The notes under the pieces were generated by a model, which saw only the letters and a list, made by a program, of their open reading frames with translations, searched no databases and was not told the origin of the DNA. Of a DNA stretch of 39,377 nucleotides, positions 7,452 through 28,677 are shown in pieces. Source of the DNA: Sulfurovum sp. (lineage in GTDB: Bacteria; Campylobacterota; Campylobacteria; Campylobacterales; Sulfurovaceae); assembly GCA_012329065.1 (NCBI GenBank), contig JAAXPZ010000078.1, positions 1 to 39,377 on the forward strand, given 5' to 3'. A program made the translations under genes and the position numbers. Every line of letters starts with the position of its first letter. Position 1 is the stretch's first letter.

Positions 7452-7509
7452 ATTATTTATTAAGATGTTTTCGTGTAATCTATACTTCAAATCAAATTGG
7501 GAGAAAAAA

Positions 7510-8562
7510 ATGAAAAAGATGTATTTACTATTAATTTTGGCATTTGCAGTGTTGCCATTATCGGCGGCTGATAAGATTAAAGAGCTTGTGCTTGCAGGAC
7601 CTAAATCTAGTGTTACCCATCCTATGGCATACATAGTCGAAAAAGGTCTATTGAACAATGTGGCAGAAAATGTAAAGTTGGTCATTTGGAACAATCCTGA
7701 CCAAGTAAGATCCCTGATAGCTGGAAAGCAAGCTCACTTTTCTGCTGTACCTAGCTATGTAGCTGCAACTTTTTATAACAAAGGGGTTCCAGTTCGTCTT
7801 TTAAATATCTCAGCTTGGGGTATACTATATATGGTATCTAGCGACCCTAAAGTAAAAACTCTAGCAGACCTCAAAGGCGAGACGATTTCTATGCCATATC
7901 GAAATGATATGCCTGATATTGTATTGAAAACTATTCTTAGCAAACAGGGCATGAATCCAGACAAGGATTTTAAATTTAACTACCATACAAGCTTACCCTC
8001 AGTTTTGCAAGAAGTAATGAGTGGCAAAACAAAACATGGTCTCTTGGCTGAGCCATTAGTATCCATGGCTCTTATGAAATCAAAAAAACTTGCCAAAGCT
8101 GGAAAGGCTTCAAAACTATATAGAGCAGTTAGTCTGCAAAAAGAGTGGGGCAAAACATTTAATCGTGATTCCAAAATACCTCAAGCTGGAATTCTGGCAA
8201 CAGCCAAGGTTCTAGATAGACCTGATGTGATTAATGCATTCCAAAAAGCATACAAAGAGGCTATAGAATGGTGCAACAATAATCCAGAAGAGGCTGGTAA
8301 AATTGTGAGTAAATACATACCTGGTCTCAAACCAAAGCCAATAGCAACTGCACTCAAAAATGCAAATATAACTTTTGTTTCTGCGGTAGACTCAAGAGCT
8401 GAATTAGAATACTTTTATAACATTCTAAAAGAAACAAACCCAGCAAAAATAGGTGGAAAGCTACCTGATGATGACTTTTATTGGAAAGCTCAAGAAGAAA
8501 AAGAAATGAAAAAAGTTGCACAGAGACCCAGCATAAATCAAGCACAAACTGCTCTACACTAG
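7510..8562 (+). CDS. NitT/TauT-type ABC transporter substrate-binding protein
   Basis: Periplasmic binding protein of the NMT1/SsuA-like group, 350 residues. Signal peptide MKKMYLLLILAFAVLPLSAA is clear. Features of the group: AGPKSSVTHPMAYIVEKGLL at the N-terminus, DQVRSLIAGKQAHFSAVPSY, LADLKGETISMP, and a C-terminal lobe with AYKEAIEWCNNNPEEAGK. The start at 7510 follows GGGAG; an upstream in-frame ATG at 7465 would place extra residues before the signal peptide. Substrate cannot be read from sequence: sulfonate, nitrate, thiamine-precursor and metal-chelate importers all share this fold. It heads the operon with the permease and ATPase. Confidence 0.85.
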   Translation: MKKMYLLLILAFAVLPLSAADKIKELVLAGPKSSVTHPMAYIVEKGLLNNVAENVKLVIWNNPDQVRSLIAGKQAHFSAVPSYVAATFYNKGVPVRLLNISAWGILYMVSSDPKVKTLADLKGETISMPYRNDMPDIVLKTILSKQGMNPDKDFKFNYHTSLPSVLQEVMSGKTKHGLLAEPLVSMALMKSKKLAKAGKASKLYRAVSLQKEWGKTFNRDSKIPQAGILATAKVLDRPDVINAFQKAYKEAIEWCNNNPEEAGKIVSKYIPGLKPKPIATALKNANITFVSAVDSRAELEYFYNILKETNPAKIGGKLPDDDFYWKAQEEKEMKKVAQRPSINQAQTALH

Positions 8563-8574
8563 AGAACGGGAAGG

Positions 8575-9318
8575 ATGAACAGACAGCAAGTACTGACAGC
8601 AATAGGCTTTATGCTATTGCTGTCAGGATGGCAAATACTTGCTATGAACATGCACCAAATTCTCTTAGCGTCACCCATTCAAGCCATAACTTCACTTTGG
8701 GAAATGCTACATACCCCATACTTTTATGATAATTTTTTAATCTCGATAAAGCGTATCTCTTTGGGTATTATTTTTGGTGGATTTTCTGGGTTTGTGTTTG
8801 GTACTATTGCTGGAATCAATCAAAACATCAAATATCTGCTGGATCCTCTTCGCTGGCTTATCATGAGTATGCCATCTGTTATTATCGTCGTTCTTGCAAT
8901 GCTTTGGTTTGGCATGGGTTCTACTATGGCTGTCTTTATGATTGCTGTGATTACAGCACCAGTGGTCTATGTAAACACAGTCAAGGGCATAGAGGCTGTA
9001 GACAAAGAGCTCATAGAAGTGGCAAAAATATACAAATTTCCATTTTTTACTCGCATCAAAAATCTATATACTCCTGCAATCGCTGGTCCTCTCAGCGCTG
9101 CTATTGTCATGATCACTTGCCAGGGAGCCAGAATAGCAGTGATGGCAGAACTTTTGGGAGCAAATGAGGGCATAGGGTACGCTGTAGGCATCACTAGGTC
9201 AAATCTTGAAATACCTCAGCTGTTTGCATGGATACTTACAACTCTCTTTATCGTAGCAATATTTGAATTTGTACTATTTCGCCCTATCCAAAACTACTTT
9301 ATGCGTTGGCAGAGATGA
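8575..9318 (+). CDS. ABC transporter permease (SsuC/TauC/ThiX-like)
   Basis: Integral membrane permease, 247 residues, with about six hydrophobic segments and the cytoplasmic EAA loop (EVAKIYKFPFFTRIKNLYTPAIAG), which couples to the ATPase. Begins 12 bases after the binding-protein stop, with GGGAAGG as ribosome-binding site, and ends in an ATGA overlap with the ATPase gene (9315-9318). Single permease gene implies a homodimeric channel. Confidence 0.88.
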   Translation: MNRQQVLTAIGFMLLLSGWQILAMNMHQILLASPIQAITSLWEMLHTPYFYDNFLISIKRISLGIIFGGFSGFVFGTIAGINQNIKYLLDPLRWLIMSMPSVIIVVLAMLWFGMGSTMAVFMIAVITAPVVYVNTVKGIEAVDKELIEVAKIYKFPFFTRIKNLYTPAIAGPLSAAIVMITCQGARIAVMAELLGANEGIGYAVGITRSNLEIPQLFAWILTTLFIVAIFEFVLFRPIQNYFMRWQR

Positions 9319-9944
9319 ATAAAATCATCACCTTTGACTCAGTCGGTAAAAAATATGGGCAGAAAACTGTATTATCTAATATCTCTTTTTCTATATATGA
9401 GCAAGATATCATTGGGTTGCTTGGTCCTAGTGGTATTGGTAAAACAACTATATTGAAACTTATATCTGGATTGGAGAAACCTACAAGTGGCAAAATCTTT
9501 GTCAGCTCTAAAAAAATCAGCTATGTATTTCAAGAGCCTAGACTTTTTCCTTGGAAGACAGCTATAGAGAATATATTACTACCACTCATGGTATCTGGGC
9601 ATAGTAAAAAAGAAGCGATGAATATTGCCAAACACTACCTTGACTCTATGGGACTATCAGAATTTATGGATTACTATCCTGCAAAATTATCTGGCGGGAT
9701 GAGGCAAAGAGTCTCATTGGCTAGAGCTTTATCACTTTGTCCAGACATACTTCTCTTAGATGAACCTTTCTCTGCTTTAGATTCCAAAAGGAAAGGTTCA
9801 CTAGTAGAACTATTAGCAAAAAGTATTGAAGAGTATCCTATGGTAGTACTATATGTTTCTCATTTTCCTGAAGAGGCTAAAAAAATAGCCAATAAAATAC
9901 ATACACTATCTTCTAAAGACAAGCTAGTTGAATCTAACTTATAA
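9315..9944 (+). CDS. ABC transporter ATPase (SsuB/TauB-like)
   Basis: Cytoplasmic ATPase of the importer, 209 residues, slightly short for the family. Walker A GPSGIGKTT (37-45), Q-loop Q73 in YVFQEPRLFPW, signature LSGGM (125-129), Walker B ILLLDE (145-150), D-loop SALD, and H-loop in YVSHFPEEA. The FQEPRLFPW sequence is typical of the nitrate/sulfonate/taurine subfamily. The start chosen (9315) lies in the ATGA overlap with the permease. Confidence 0.9.
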   Translation: MNKIITFDSVGKKYGQKTVLSNISFSIYEQDIIGLLGPSGIGKTTILKLISGLEKPTSGKIFVSSKKISYVFQEPRLFPWKTAIENILLPLMVSGHSKKEAMNIAKHYLDSMGLSEFMDYYPAKLSGGMRQRVSLARALSLCPDILLLDEPFSALDSKRKGSLVELLAKSIEEYPMVVLYVSHFPEEAKKIANKIHTLSSKDKLVESNL

Positions 9945-12015: not shown

Positions 12016-12483
12016 TTATACCTTTTGTTTCTTTTTTTCACGACTATACATTGCTGCTCCTAAAACGAGTCCCGCACTAACGATAACGATGTTTTTGACA
12101 ATGTATTGACCCTCTATAGTGAATGCATATGGAATCTTCGTAAATGATAATTCTGGAAATAGAAATAATGGTGTAAAGGTTCCAAGCATTTGTGTAAATA
12201 AAAGAAATAATGTAAAACGCATATAAACTCCAAATATCAGACCGATACCAATCAATACTTCCCATGTAGCTAGAACCCTTATAGATACCTCAGGTGGGAT
12301 AGTACCAAATGATAACAGGCTGACGGTTTGTGTTGATAGTGCCTCAGCAGGACTCAATCCTGGAAAAAATTTAAGGATACCAAACCAGAAAAATATTACA
12401 CCTATACTTATTCTCAAAAGAAGCATGCCGTATCTATCCATGAAAGATATCATTTTATCATCTAAATTATTAAATTGACCCAT
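12016..12483 (-). CDS. DoxX-family membrane protein
   Basis: A 155-residue protein with four predicted membrane segments (about 20-38, 69-88, 90-110, 125-145) and the DoxX signature start LLLRISIGVIFFWFGILKF. DoxX proteins are quinol-oxidase-associated or thiosulfate:quinone oxidoreductase subunits in archaea; many bacterial homologues are of unknown function. Last gene of the minus-strand run, 46 bases after the DCC gene, with a perfect palindrome in the spacer. Convergent with the YyaL-like gene, nine bases away. Confidence 0.8.
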   Translation of the reverse strand: MGQFNNLDDKMISFMDRYGMLLLRISIGVIFFWFGILKFFPGLSPAEALSTQTVSLLSFGTIPPEVSIRVLATWEVLIGIGLIFGVYMRFTLFLLFTQMLGTFTPLFLFPELSFTKIPYAFTIEGQYIVKNIVIVSAGLVLGAAMYSREKKKQKV

Positions 12484-12529: not shown

Positions 12530-12958
12530 TTAACTTTTCTTTCTATCATCGTTTGGTATTATGGGGCAAAATTCATTTTTTCCGAAAATCTTATACCTAT
12601 TTTTGGCGATTAACCCATAAAGCCAGTCCCTAAAAACTAAAGGGGCTACTTTAAAAATAGTAAATAGTTTCCATGGATATTTCATCTTTGCCATAATAGC
12701 AAGAACTGCTTCACTTTTTTCATAACTTTGACCCCCTGTTATCAAAATTATTGATTCTAGATAGTCATCTGGATATCCAAAGTGCCTGAGTATCTCTTGA
12801 CCTTCATTGGATTGGATACTTAACAACCTAAATCTATTATCCAAGTCATGCTTTACAATGAATTTGCCCCATGTATTACAAAGATTACAAATACCATCAA
12901 ACAGCACTATATCCTTGTTTTCCCTCATATATGCTGGTATATTGTTTGTATTATTCAT
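12530..12958 (-). CDS. DCC-family thiol-disulfide oxidoreductase-like protein (DUF393)
   Basis: A 142-residue DUF393 protein. The defining motif is VLFDGICNLCN, with C24-x2-C27 in a thioredoxin-like context, and the family's FRLLSIQSNEGQEIL and SEAVLAIMAK blocks follow. Role in vivo unknown; a redox function is inferred from the CxxC. Starts 16 bases after cysK and so probably belongs to the metY-rrf2-cysK transcript. An internal ATG at codon 11 is a possible alternative start. Confidence 0.85.
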   Translation of the reverse strand: MNNTNNIPAYMRENKDIVLFDGICNLCNTWGKFIVKHDLDNRFRLLSIQSNEGQEILRHFGYPDDYLESIILITGGQSYEKSEAVLAIMAKMKYPWKLFTIFKVAPLVFRDWLYGLIAKNRYKIFGKNEFCPIIPNDDRKKS

Positions 12959-12974
12959 CTATTTTTCTCTACAA

Positions 12975-13892
12975 TTAAGTGTATAATCCCGCACTAAGGT
13001 ATCTCTCTCCAGTATCACAAAGTATGGTAACAATCACTTTTCCTTGGTTTTCTTCTCTTTTTGCAACCATGGAGGCTGCATATACATTAGCTCCAGAGGA
13101 GATACCTACAAGTAAGCCTTCTTCTTTGGCAAGATTTCTGGAAACCTCTATTGCGTCATCATCTTTGACCCGAATCACTTCACCATATATTTCAGTGTTG
13201 AGCACAGTGGGTACAAATCCAGCCCCTATACCTTGTATTGCATGAGGTGCGGGACCTTCACCGCTAAGCACAGCTGATTTATCTGGCTCTACCGCGATAA
13301 TCTGTATCTGCGGGTTGTGATGTTTAAGCACTTCTGATATCCCTGTGATGCTGCCTCCAGTACCTACTGCTGCAACAAAAATATCTATTTTCCCCTCTGT
13401 GTCTTCCAGTATCTCTACAGCTGTTGTCTGGCGATGTATCTCAGGGTTGGCTGGGTTATCAAACTGTTGTGGGACAAAGGATTTATCTGTGCTCTGAGCA
13501 AGCTCTTTTGCTTTATCAATCGCACCCTTCATTCCTTTGGCTGGCTCTGTTAGTACTAGTTCTGCCCCCAGTGCACTAAGCAACCTTCTTCTTTCGATAC
13601 TCATAGAGCTCGGCATTGTCAATATCAACTTGAGTCCTTTTGCTGCACATATTGCAGCAAGACCTATGCCAGTATTGCCACTAGTAGGCTCTATGATGGT
13701 GCTATGCTTGTCAATCTTGCCTGACTGTAATGCCTGATCAATCATGCTACTAGCAATTCTGTCTTTTACTGAGTGGGTGGGATTCATAAATTCACACTTT
13801 CCAAGCACTAATGCTCCATCTTTGCTAGCACCAGATAATTTAACTAGTGGTGTTTTTCCTATCAAACCAATAATATTTTCTGCGTATTTCAT
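12975..13892 (-). CDS. cysK: O-acetylserine sulfhydrylase (cysteine synthase A)
   Basis: PLP enzyme making L-cysteine from O-acetylserine and sulfide. The 305 residues are typical. The PLP lysine is K43 in NPTHSVKDRIA; the substrate loop TSGNTG is at 70-75; GTGGSITG and the late serine motif (ILCDTGERYLS) are present. The protein lies 48 bases after the rrf2 gene, and with it and metY forms a sulfur-assimilation unit. Relatives can bind serine acetyltransferase or, in Bacillus, the Rrf2 regulator CymR. Confidence 0.95.
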   Translation of the reverse strand: MKYAENIIGLIGKTPLVKLSGASKDGALVLGKCEFMNPTHSVKDRIASSMIDQALQSGKIDKHSTIIEPTSGNTGIGLAAICAAKGLKLILTMPSSMSIERRRLLSALGAELVLTEPAKGMKGAIDKAKELAQSTDKSFVPQQFDNPANPEIHRQTTAVEILEDTEGKIDIFVAAVGTGGSITGISEVLKHHNPQIQIIAVEPDKSAVLSGEGPAPHAIQGIGAGFVPTVLNTEIYGEVIRVKDDDAIEVSRNLAKEEGLLVGISSGANVYAASMVAKREENQGKVIVTILCDTGERYLSAGLYT

Positions 13893-13940: not shown

Positions 13941-14354
13941 TTAGATACTAAAATGCAAAGATTCATTATATGCTTCCTTGTATTTCTCTAATTCTGCTAA
14001 GTTGAGTAAAAACAACTCCATAATCTTCTCTTGCTTATCTGCAAAAAAAAGAGTCAGTGCCGTATTGTCATTGTCATAATCAGATAGCCTCAAACTCTCT
14101 CCAGATGCCAATAATATATCTTTGACAAGTATATCTTTTGCATCCATTGATATCGAATAGCCTCCATGTGGACCCCTAGTACTGACAATCATCCCTGCGT
14201 TACGAAGCTTTGCCAGTATCTGATCTAGATAATTTCTTGGGATATTATAGCTGTCCGATATTTCTCTTACTCGCATAGGAGTTTTATTGCCATGCTGATA
14301 TAATGCATACATGGCAGACAATGCGTAAACACCCTTTGAGGAGACTAGTGTCAT
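13941..14354 (-). CDS. Rrf2-family transcriptional regulator without cysteines
   Basis: A 137-residue winged-helix repressor of the Rrf2 family: GVYALSAMYALYQHG, recognition region REISDSYNIPRNYLDQILAKLRNAGMIVSTRGPHGGY. The protein has no cysteine, so it cannot hold the Fe-S cluster of IscR or NsrR; in this respect it resembles CymR, the cysteine-metabolism repressor of Gram-positives that works in complex with CysK. Being encoded between metY (ATGA overlap at 14351-14354) and cysK supports a local sulfur-control role. The palindrome inside the metY promoter is the likely operator. Confidence 0.88.
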   Translation of the reverse strand: MTLVSSKGVYALSAMYALYQHGNKTPMRVREISDSYNIPRNYLDQILAKLRNAGMIVSTRGPHGGYSISMDAKDILVKDILLASGESLRLSDYDNDNTALTLFFADKQEKIMELFLLNLAELEKYKEAYNESLHFSI

Positions 14355-15631
14355 ATGCCCTGCTCTCCTATGGCCTGGCTAAGGTCAGCAATCAGATCTA
14401 TACTATCTTCTAGACCTATGCTGAGCCTTACAGCAGTCGGCTTGATGCCTGCCACAGTGAGTTCTTCCTCACTCATTTGAGAATGAGTGGTGCTAGCAGG
14501 ATGCACTATCAAGGATTTTGAATCACCTATATTTACAACTACCGAGAATAGTTTGGCACTATCAATAATTCTTTTTGCCTCGTCATAACTCTCGACTTCA
14601 AACGATATGAGTCCAGATGCCTTGCCGTTCTTGAGATACTTTTGTGCTCTACTGTATCCATCATCCGACTTAAGTGCAGGATAATTGACCTTGAGCACCT
14701 TTGGATGTGCCTCCAAGAAATTTGCAATCTCCAATGCGTTATCAGAATGTTTCTGCATACGAAGATCAAGTGTCTCAAGTGTATTGATCAGCAGCCATGA
14801 ATTGAATGGCGACTGTGCCGCACCCAAATCCCTAAGTAATCCTAGCCTAATACGAAGAGAAAAACATGGAAGGGGAACATCCACATACACTAGACCATGA
14901 TATGAAGCATCAGGCTCAGTAAAAAATGGATATCTCTTGGCATTTGCTTTGAAAAACTCACACATTCCTTCTCTTTCTATGATAATACCGCCAATAGCTG
15001 TACCTTGACCATTAGTATACTTAGAAGTTGAATGGACCACGATATCAACACCCCATTGAATAGGATTACATAACACAGCTGAGGCTACCGTGTTGTCACA
15101 TATGGTCAATACACCATGTTTTTTGGCAACACTTGCAATCTTCTCTATATCTGCTAAAGCTATCTGAGGATTTGATAGGGACTCAAAAAAGATAGCTTTT
15201 GTCTTGTCATCAATTTGTTCTTCTAAATCACCTGCACTTTCTACGCAGAAAACCTTTGCATCTATACCAAAACGCTTCATGGTAAATGTGAGTAGTGTGA
15301 CTGCACCGCCATATAGCTTATCTGAAATGAGTATATTATCGCCCGCCTGAGCTACATTTGCTACAGCATAAAATATCGCACTTTGCCCACTTGCCACAGC
15401 TATAGCGGCCACACCATCTTCAAGCTGTGCATATCTACTCTCTAGTACATCTGTAGTGGGGTTTGTTAGTCTTGTGTAGATTGAGCCAAGCTCTTTGAGT
15501 GCAAATAAATTTGCAGCATGCTCGGCATCCCTAAATGCGTACGCAGTCGTCTGTGAAATAGGCACGGACATCTCTCCATTGCCTATTGTTTTATCATATC
15601 CTGCGTGTAGAGCAACTGTCTGTTTCTGCAT
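14351..15631 (-). CDS. metY: O-acetylhomoserine sulfhydrylase
   Basis: Cys/Met-metabolism PLP enzyme using O-acetylhomoserine and sulfide to form homocysteine. The 426-residue length and insertions fit MetY rather than the shorter MetB/MetC. PLP lysine K204 in VVHSTSKYTNGQG; substrate motifs YTRLTNPTTDVLE (52-64) and SGQSAIFYA are conserved. C-terminal VRLSIGLEDSIDLIADL is typical. First gene of the metY-rrf2-cysK-DCC unit, driven by a consensus promoter at 15662-15690. Confidence 0.95.
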   Translation of the reverse strand: MQKQTVALHAGYDKTIGNGEMSVPISQTTAYAFRDAEHAANLFALKELGSIYTRLTNPTTDVLESRYAQLEDGVAAIAVASGQSAIFYAVANVAQAGDNILISDKLYGGAVTLLTFTMKRFGIDAKVFCVESAGDLEEQIDDKTKAIFFESLSNPQIALADIEKIASVAKKHGVLTICDNTVASAVLCNPIQWGVDIVVHSTSKYTNGQGTAIGGIIIEREGMCEFFKANAKRYPFFTEPDASYHGLVYVDVPLPCFSLRIRLGLLRDLGAAQSPFNSWLLINTLETLDLRMQKHSDNALEIANFLEAHPKVLKVNYPALKSDDGYSRAQKYLKNGKASGLISFEVESYDEAKRIIDSAKLFSVVVNIGDSKSLIVHPASTTHSQMSEEELTVAGIKPTAVRLSIGLEDSIDLIADLSQAIGEQGI

Positions 15632-15661: not shown

Positions 15662-15690
15662 ATTATAGCAATATATCTATATATTGTCAA
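15662..15690 (-). promoter_or_regulatory. consensus promoter with 18-bp inverted-repeat operator, metY-rrf2-cysK operon
   Basis: On the minus strand TTGACA (15690-15685) is separated by exactly 17 bp from TATAAT (15667-15662). The spacer is filled by an inverted repeat: CAATATAT (15669-15676), two central bases, ATATATTG (15679-15686). A bound dimer would block RNA polymerase. The metY ATG is 31 bases downstream of the -10. Rrf2 is the obvious candidate ligand, by proximity. Confidence 0.8.
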
Positions 15691-15703
15691 GTAAGTTAAT
15701 AAC

Positions 15704-15717
15704 GATTATATATAATC
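15704..15717. promoter_or_regulatory. second AT-rich perfect palindrome upstream of metY
   Basis: GATTATATATAATC at 15704-15717 is a 14-bp perfect palindrome 14 bp upstream of the metY -35 box. It could be an upstream operator, or an AT-rich structural element such as the end of the ybgF transcript. The sequence between 15718 and 15764 is almost wholly A/T with further short TATATA runs. Confidence 0.35.
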
Positions 15718-15764
15718 CATTATATGGTACTTATAAATATATATAATATATATACTTATGTATA

Positions 15765-28137: not shown

Positions 28138-28677
28138 TCATGCCACCTTCTTTGCTATGATTTCGACCACTTGTTTTTCAGAAAGTGGAATATCATCACT
28201 TGTGATATTTTCACTGAGTACTTCATCAATAGTCTCTTTGACCATTCTTCGCTCTTCATGACCCATACGCTCTTCATGAAGTTTATCTAAAAGCTCAATA
28301 TCTCTTTCTCTACCCTCTTCTAGTCGTTTTGCCAAAAGTTCAGCCTCATTTTTACTATCTTCGATAATCTCTTTGGCTTTAATCTCGCTTTCGACAAGTT
28401 CGTTCTCTGCATTTTTCTGTGCATCTTTTGCCTCTTGAAGTTTTGATTCTATTTCATTCAGCTGAGCAGCAATCCCCTCTTTCCTACCAACAAAGAAATC
28501 TTTGACAGGAGATGCTAAAAGATAATATAATAAACCAACAAAAATCACAAAATTGAATGCTCGAGGGAAAAAGTCTGTATGACGACCAGTCTGCTCAAAA
28601 TATCTACTTTCCCCACCTGCTGCCATTATAGCAACTGGAAGAAGTAACAACAATACAAATATTATTTTTTTATTCAT
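28138..28677 (-). CDS. atpF: ATP synthase F0 b subunit
   Basis: Membrane-anchored peripheral-stalk subunit, 179 residues. N-terminus MNKKIIFVLLLLLPVAIMAA looks like a signal peptide or extra membrane anchor, followed by the b-type segment around RAFNFVIFVGLLYYLLASPV (40-59) and a long charged helix. An N-terminal extension of this sort is seen in Campylobacterota b subunits. Follows b' by 14 bases. Confidence 0.92.
   Translation of the reverse strand: MNKKIIFVLLLLLPVAIMAAGGESRYFEQTGRHTDFFPRAFNFVIFVGLLYYLLASPVKDFFVGRKEGIAAQLNEIESKLQEAKDAQKNAENELVESEIKAKEIIEDSKNEAELLAKRLEEGRERDIELLDKLHEERMGHEERRMVKETIDEVLSENITSDDIPLSEKQVVEIIAKKVA

Follow-up and report, generated by a model that had tools for sequence, protein, structure and literature searches.

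A conserved element over the -35 box as candidate operator of a putative sulfur-responsive Rrf2-CysK switch in Campylobacterota

The operon considered here lies in a window, by which we mean the whole stretch of DNA that was analysed (39,377 nucleotides), corresponding to contig 8 of the 82 contigs of a 1.94-Mb Sulfurovum genome. On its minus strand metY is followed by a gene for a small regulator of the Rrf2 family and then by cysK, with two further co-directional genes downstream that are candidate members of the same regulated unit (Table 1). A sequence-only reading of this DNA had pointed to an Rrf2 regulator that lacks cysteine and is encoded between metY and cysK, and both the gene order and the lack of cysteine are as it described. 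An NMT1/SsuA-like binding protein and two transporter-like open reading frames (ORFs) are encoded near the sulfur operon (window 7465-9944, plus strand), and a TATATATAATATATATA tract occupies window positions 15737-15754, upstream of the candidate operator and just 3' of a YbgF-like gene.

Table 1. Features of the metY operon and its promoter region, in window coordinates.
Feature	Position	Strand	Remarks
Conserved element AATCGTTATTAACTTACTTGACAAT, candidate Rrf2 operator	15683..15707	-	core ACTTGACAAT at 15692-15683
-35 hexamer TTGACA	15685..15690	-	within the conserved operator-like element; same place conserved in relatives
18-bp inverted repeat CAATATATCTATATATTG	15669..15686		probably due to chance, the spacer being AT-rich
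-10 hexamer TATAAT	15662..15667	-	17 bp from the -35
Probable transcription start (A)	15655	-	inferred position
metY, O-acetylhomoserine/O-acetylserine sulfhydrylase	14351..15631	-	TIGR01326 557 bits, cut-off 495
Rrf2-family regulator	13941..14354	-	137 aa, no cysteine, C-terminus LHFSI; Pfam/NCBIfam
Codons of C-terminal F-S-I, proposed CysK anchor	13944..13952	-	predicted from sequence only
cysK, cysteine synthase A, proposed co-repressor partner	12975..13892	-	TIGR01139 446 bits, cut-off 351
DCC1-like thiol-disulfide oxidoreductase	12530..12958	-	downstream, co-directional; candidate member of the regulated unit
DoxX-like membrane protein	12016..12483	-	downstream, co-directional; candidate member of the regulated unit

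The promoter of this operon is real. Running from 15690 to 15662 on the minus strand, it matches the TTGACA-17-TATAAT consensus at 12 of 12 positions, as had been claimed, with a TG preceding the -10 and the metY ATG (15631) 31 bp downstream of the end of the -10. Its description as by far the best promoter in the window holds for the perfect score but not for its uniqueness, as a second 12/12 match, TTGACA-18-TATAAT, is found at 28502-28531 on the plus strand. The latter is probably spurious, because it falls inside an ORF on the opposite strand (28138-28677), while the metY promoter exceeds chance because it coincides with a phylogenetically conserved element.

That element emerged from a comparison of 32 regions upstream of regulator-bearing operons (window included), 25 of which contain a ACTTGACA-like sequence. 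Its consensus is about AATnnYTATWRATTTACTTGACATT, covering the -35 and placed exactly 17 bp from the -10. A matrix of 24 sites was built over positions -17 to +12, position 0 being the A of ACTTGAC; one locus (L057), a poor match, had been discarded ahead of the first matrix. When 60 further genomes were scanned at a threshold score of at least 14, the matrix found the element in 46 and missed it at the regulator loci of the other 14, and nearly all of the 46 sites directly precede metY, rrf2 or a short gene ahead of rrf2. In the profile of these held-out sites position -8 is A in all 46; 43 have T at -7, 44 have R at -5 and 37 have T at -2, and next comes ACTTGACATT with its C, G and C nearly invariant; the -10 hexamer starts 17 bp past the -35, though it lies outside the matrix, and an A at position 37, the likely transcription start, is present in 40. 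A further set of named loci, the best 80 of 250, was collected by means of a single conserved peptide pattern and shares genomes with the earlier sets, of which it is not independent. The gene order metY-rrf2-cysK is kept in 66 of these best 80 of 250, and the element is present in 73 and absent at threshold from seven. Of the 73 sites (again from the best 80 of 250), 65 precede metY and five precede rrf2 by less than 110 bp, while 72 have a -10-like hexamer, no part of the matrix, at exactly 17 bp.

The window's own element scores 32.4 bits when the window is left out of the matrix, despite deviating from the consensus at several positions (CAAT for CATT, GTTATTAA for nYTATWRA). A scan of the window returned no second strong sulfur element, the next best site reaching 7.5 bits. 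The earlier prediction that this promoter is under conserved control in Campylobacterota gains support from both the held-out genomes and the named loci. What the element lacks is pronounced symmetry: the complement rate is 0.49 at the best dyad centre, 0.47 at the next and about 0.3 at most others, and the best centre yields a weakly supported 25-bp pattern, AATnTCnA...TnGAnATT. The borders of the putative operator are uncertain, because the dyad is weak and because the IscR type-1 consensus (PMC6599224) fits best in another register, 13 bp from the best one of the element.

In relatives the element is not confined to the regulator operon. It precedes, at one locus each, a stand-alone cysK, a DUF2061 gene directly ahead of cysH, a DUF2061 gene directly ahead of a CysH-CysD-like fusion ORF, ssuD (FMNH2-dependent alkanesulfonate monooxygenase, above its cut-off), a sulfate-binding protein (above cut-off) and a MetQ-like protein (below cut-off). 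Four genes for FadL/TodX-type outer-membrane proteins (Pfam for one of them only) also carry it, three with a clear left half, and their products may import an organic sulfur compound. In one clade (three loci, Pfam for one) a DUF4395-type gene stands first in the regulator operon, with rrf2 next and then a distant MetY-like PLP enzyme, and DUF4395 may belong to sulfur assimilation. Within the present genome, pattern searches found no second sulfur gene with the element. Exact TTACTTGACAWT occurs at two places here, the second being in front of a LysM-like gene (named by eye) and scoring only 15.5 bits; a third -10-linked match has no ORF downstream within 300 bp and may be a stable-RNA promoter. 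With one mismatch there are 33 places, at 28 of which the downstream genes were read, and sites at dapD, grpE and others (names by eye) were judged to be chance.

The sulfur link of the proposed switch comes from the element's presence at sulfur genes, and autoregulation is the natural reading of its place in front of the regulator's own operon. It could nonetheless be the site of some other sulfur regulator, the Rrf2 gene merely travelling in the operon. Room for such an arrangement is left by the indirect assignment of the Rrf2 protein to the element, by one genome (G042) with a fadL-linked site and no clear regulator gene, and by an IscR-like Rrf2 paralogue (ending ILP) encoded in the present genome. 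We consider it unlikely, in that the element stays upstream of the regulator across several arrangements of genes (metY-rrf2-cysK, DUF4395-rrf2 and rrf2 first), and sulfur genes unlinked to the regulator carry the element only in genomes that encode the regulator, in 5 of 34 of these and in none of the 65 that lack it (Fisher p 0.004). Counting the regulator operon as well, the figures become 21 of 34 and 1 of 65, a comparison that is partly circular because the regulator must be there for its operon to have a site.

A plainer account of the conservation is that TTGACA merely marks a strong sigma-70 promoter without a dedicated operator, as the ideal -35/-10 spacing would allow. The element core also occurs in relatives at grpE, clpB, groES, tRNA/rRNA-like and pilin promoters, and its occurrence at the tRNA/rRNA-like and heat-shock ones speaks for a bare promoter. 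Conservation, however, extends to the left of the -35 hexamer, through the A at -8 and the T at -7, and it is this left half that separates sulfur-linked sites from others with the same core. A search of 99 genomes with TACTTGACATT plus a -10 gave 52 sites against six for the reversed pattern; we placed 28 with the regulator operon, sulfur or FadL-like genes and the remaining 24 elsewhere. The left half, which played no part in the choice of sites, has a median score of +6.6 bits at 22 sulfur- or regulator-linked sites and -5.3 bits at 23 others (Mann-Whitney p 4e-7, on 45 sites, after six from operons and one duplicate coding copy had been set aside from the 52), where "sulfur-linked" was assigned by us according to the gene downstream and extends to DUF4395 and FadL-like genes, linked by association only. 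A sigma-70 promoter and nothing more is thus a distinctly unlikely explanation. The grpE and clpB promoters of relatives (five loci) combine ACTTGACATT with a downstream TCAAGT/TAAAGT-like arm, and we take these sites, with their ACTTGA...TCAAGT-like arms, to resemble HspR/HAIR sites.

The sequence-only reading had placed the operator elsewhere, in an 18-bp inverted repeat said to make up the spacer. The repeat exists, as two perfect 8-bp arms flanking 2 bp, but it is not exactly the spacer, which on the minus strand reads ATATATAGATATATTGC: it takes in the last two bases (CA) of the -35 and ends one base short of the -10. Its appeal as an Rrf2 operator lies in those perfect arms between -35 and -10 and in its being the sole perfect copy of CAATATATCTATATATTG in the genome, where one place has one mismatch and six have two (seven further places at two mismatches or fewer, against two for a reversed control). 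Such repeats are nevertheless easily come by in this sequence. The window has 12 with arms of at least 8 and a loop of at most 4, whereas 20 shuffles gave between 0 and 10 (mean about 4), and at least one arose in 22% of 2000 dinucleotide shuffles of the 133-bp upstream stretch, which is 80% AT. None of 78 other aligned promoter sites of relatives forms more than 6 of the 8 spacer pairs, most having 2 to 4 (commonest 3, with 6 seen once), the repeat is missing from a same-genus relative with the same operon (G004), and spacer positions 11-19 hold little information in the profile of the 46 held-out sites. Non-conservation in relatives with the same operon had been named in advance as the result that would count against the proposal, and all 78 aligned sites lack the repeat; by that criterion it is not the operator. 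On the alignment of relatives and the shuffle test we rejected the palindrome, which is very improbable as a binding site and probably a consequence of the high AT content. Most likely the conserved -35 element serves as operator instead.

The regulator itself clears the Rrf2 family cut-offs (PF02082, 86.2 bits against 30; TIGR00738, 81.6 against 73.3) and falls well short of the more specific ones, with 66.3-67.1 bits for the CymR family NF047409 (cut-off 195) and 71.1 bits for the IscR family TIGR02010 (cut-off 207.55), the latter still being its best equivalog match by score. Being so far below the NCBI CymR cut-off, it is not filed here as CymR. Among the matches listed, its relatives come from Arcobacter, Sulfurospirillum, Sulfurimonas and Sulfurovum, the closest named one being 51% identical and from a Sulfurovum MAG. 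An AlphaFold model (pLDDT 86.4, last block 64) has its highest TM-score with Bacillus subtilis CymR (2y75_D; TM 0.82, rmsd 2.0, about 26% identity), while IscR, at a TM of about 0.76, comes first by E-value in the fold search. On this model the protein is an Rrf2 fold without Fe-S ligand cysteines, CymR- and IscR-like. An Fe-S sensing regulator of the IscR/RsrR kind, working without CysK, might be suggested by the leading equivalog match and by IscR's lead in E-value, but was rejected on cysteine content and is most improbable, given a score far under the IscR cut-off, sulfur-acquisition genes as targets of the element, and no cysteine in the window protein or in 47 of the best 80 of 250 named relatives, which share no conserved set. 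The regulator is best read from its sequence as a CysK-assisted repressor that would work like CymR, even though it scores so far below the CymR cut-off.

What stands out in the regulator is its tail. A C-terminal isoleucine is present in 35 of 35 orthologues and in all of the best 80 of 250 named regulators, these last also sharing a tyrosine at -3 with -2 and -4 variable; the window protein has phenylalanine at -3. All orthologues looked at share an aromatic-x-isoleucine ending. In the cysteine synthase complex a C-terminal isoleucine anchors CysE in the active site of CysK (PMC12895370, PMC4961446) and contributes about 80% of the energy of CysE-CysK binding; a list of proteins with such a tail for CysK includes CymR (PMC12895370). 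The regulator's tail looks built for docking into CysK, and the partnership proposed earlier from gene neighbourhood is strengthened by this invariant residue. CysE of the present genome, by contrast with its counterpart in that complex, ends IKSMKD, and none of the 16 regulator genomes checked (this one included) has a CysE with a terminal isoleucine, which is likewise missing from CysE in 12 of 15 genomes without the regulator (difference not significant, p 0.10; tails located by BLAST, with one weak match, G089, whose true CysE is uncertain). One may tentatively suppose, at somewhat less than even odds, that the CysK anchor has moved from CysE to the Rrf2 regulator, so that CysK would signal cysteine status to the DNA and no longer to CysE. 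Such an exchange is not proven, because CysE also lacks the isoleucine in most of the regulator-free genomes. If true, it would make for a self-contained CysK-sensing regulon across Campylobacterota with its operator fused to the -35.

Taken together, we propose with a probability of roughly 70% that metY-rrf2-cysK is an autoregulated sulfur switch in which the Rrf2 protein represses at the -35 element with CysK as co-repressor and O-acetylserine as signal. We infer the binder, the repression, the docking and the signal alike. The Rrf2 protein would bind the roughly 25-bp element, whose centre lies about 40 bp before the probable start, and keep RNA polymerase off the near-consensus promoter; an element lying over the -35 of so strong a promoter fits a repressor better than an activator. 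When cysteine is sufficient and O-acetylserine low, the isoleucine tail would dock in the CysK active site, and CysK would stabilise the regulator on DNA as its co-repressor. In sulfur shortage O-acetylserine would compete the tail out of CysK and the operon would open. The same regulator may control further sulfur-acquisition genes in relatives, with one strong site found in the present genome. CysK-assisted repression is known from Firmicutes, and many Campylobacterota live from sulfur chemistry, so that the regulator, should the proposal be true, is a candidate master switch of sulfur assimilation in this phylum. It would also be a third setting for CysK docking, besides CysE and CymR, and one open to single-residue change. 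The open-access literature searched yielded no paper on such a Campylobacterota regulator.

Among known systems the nearest is CymR of Bacillus subtilis and Staphylococcus aureus. With it the regulator would share a cluster-free Rrf2 fold, the isoleucine motif at the C-terminus (CymR's per PMC12895370), control of cysteine and sulfur genes (here on comparative grounds only, through cysK, cysH, ssuD, the sulfate-binding protein and metQ) and a CysK partnership that is known for CymR and predicted here. The logic of CymR, CysK and O-acetylserine (PMC3828012, PMC2940859) is taken over by analogy, its application to this operon resting on gene neighbourhood and the tail. Unlike CymR, our regulator sits between metY and cysK, in Campylobacterota, and scores far under the family cut-off. 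The pair CAC2236-CAC2235 of Clostridium acetobutylicum likewise has an Rrf2 gene directly upstream of cysK and a predicted sulfur regulon (PMC3828012), but belongs to a Firmicute, is a prediction only and comes with no mention of a metY in front. The resemblance to IscR is of another kind: its type-1 consensus also measures 25 bp, its sites also overlap -35 boxes, and its half-site ATASYYGACT recalls TTACTTGACA of the element (PMC6599224), whereas the regulator here has no cluster cysteines and has sulfur targets, and the second half-site of the consensus does not match in the register of the first. The cysteine synthase complex, finally, offers the same kind of C-terminal isoleucine anchor, carried here by the regulator and not by CysE.
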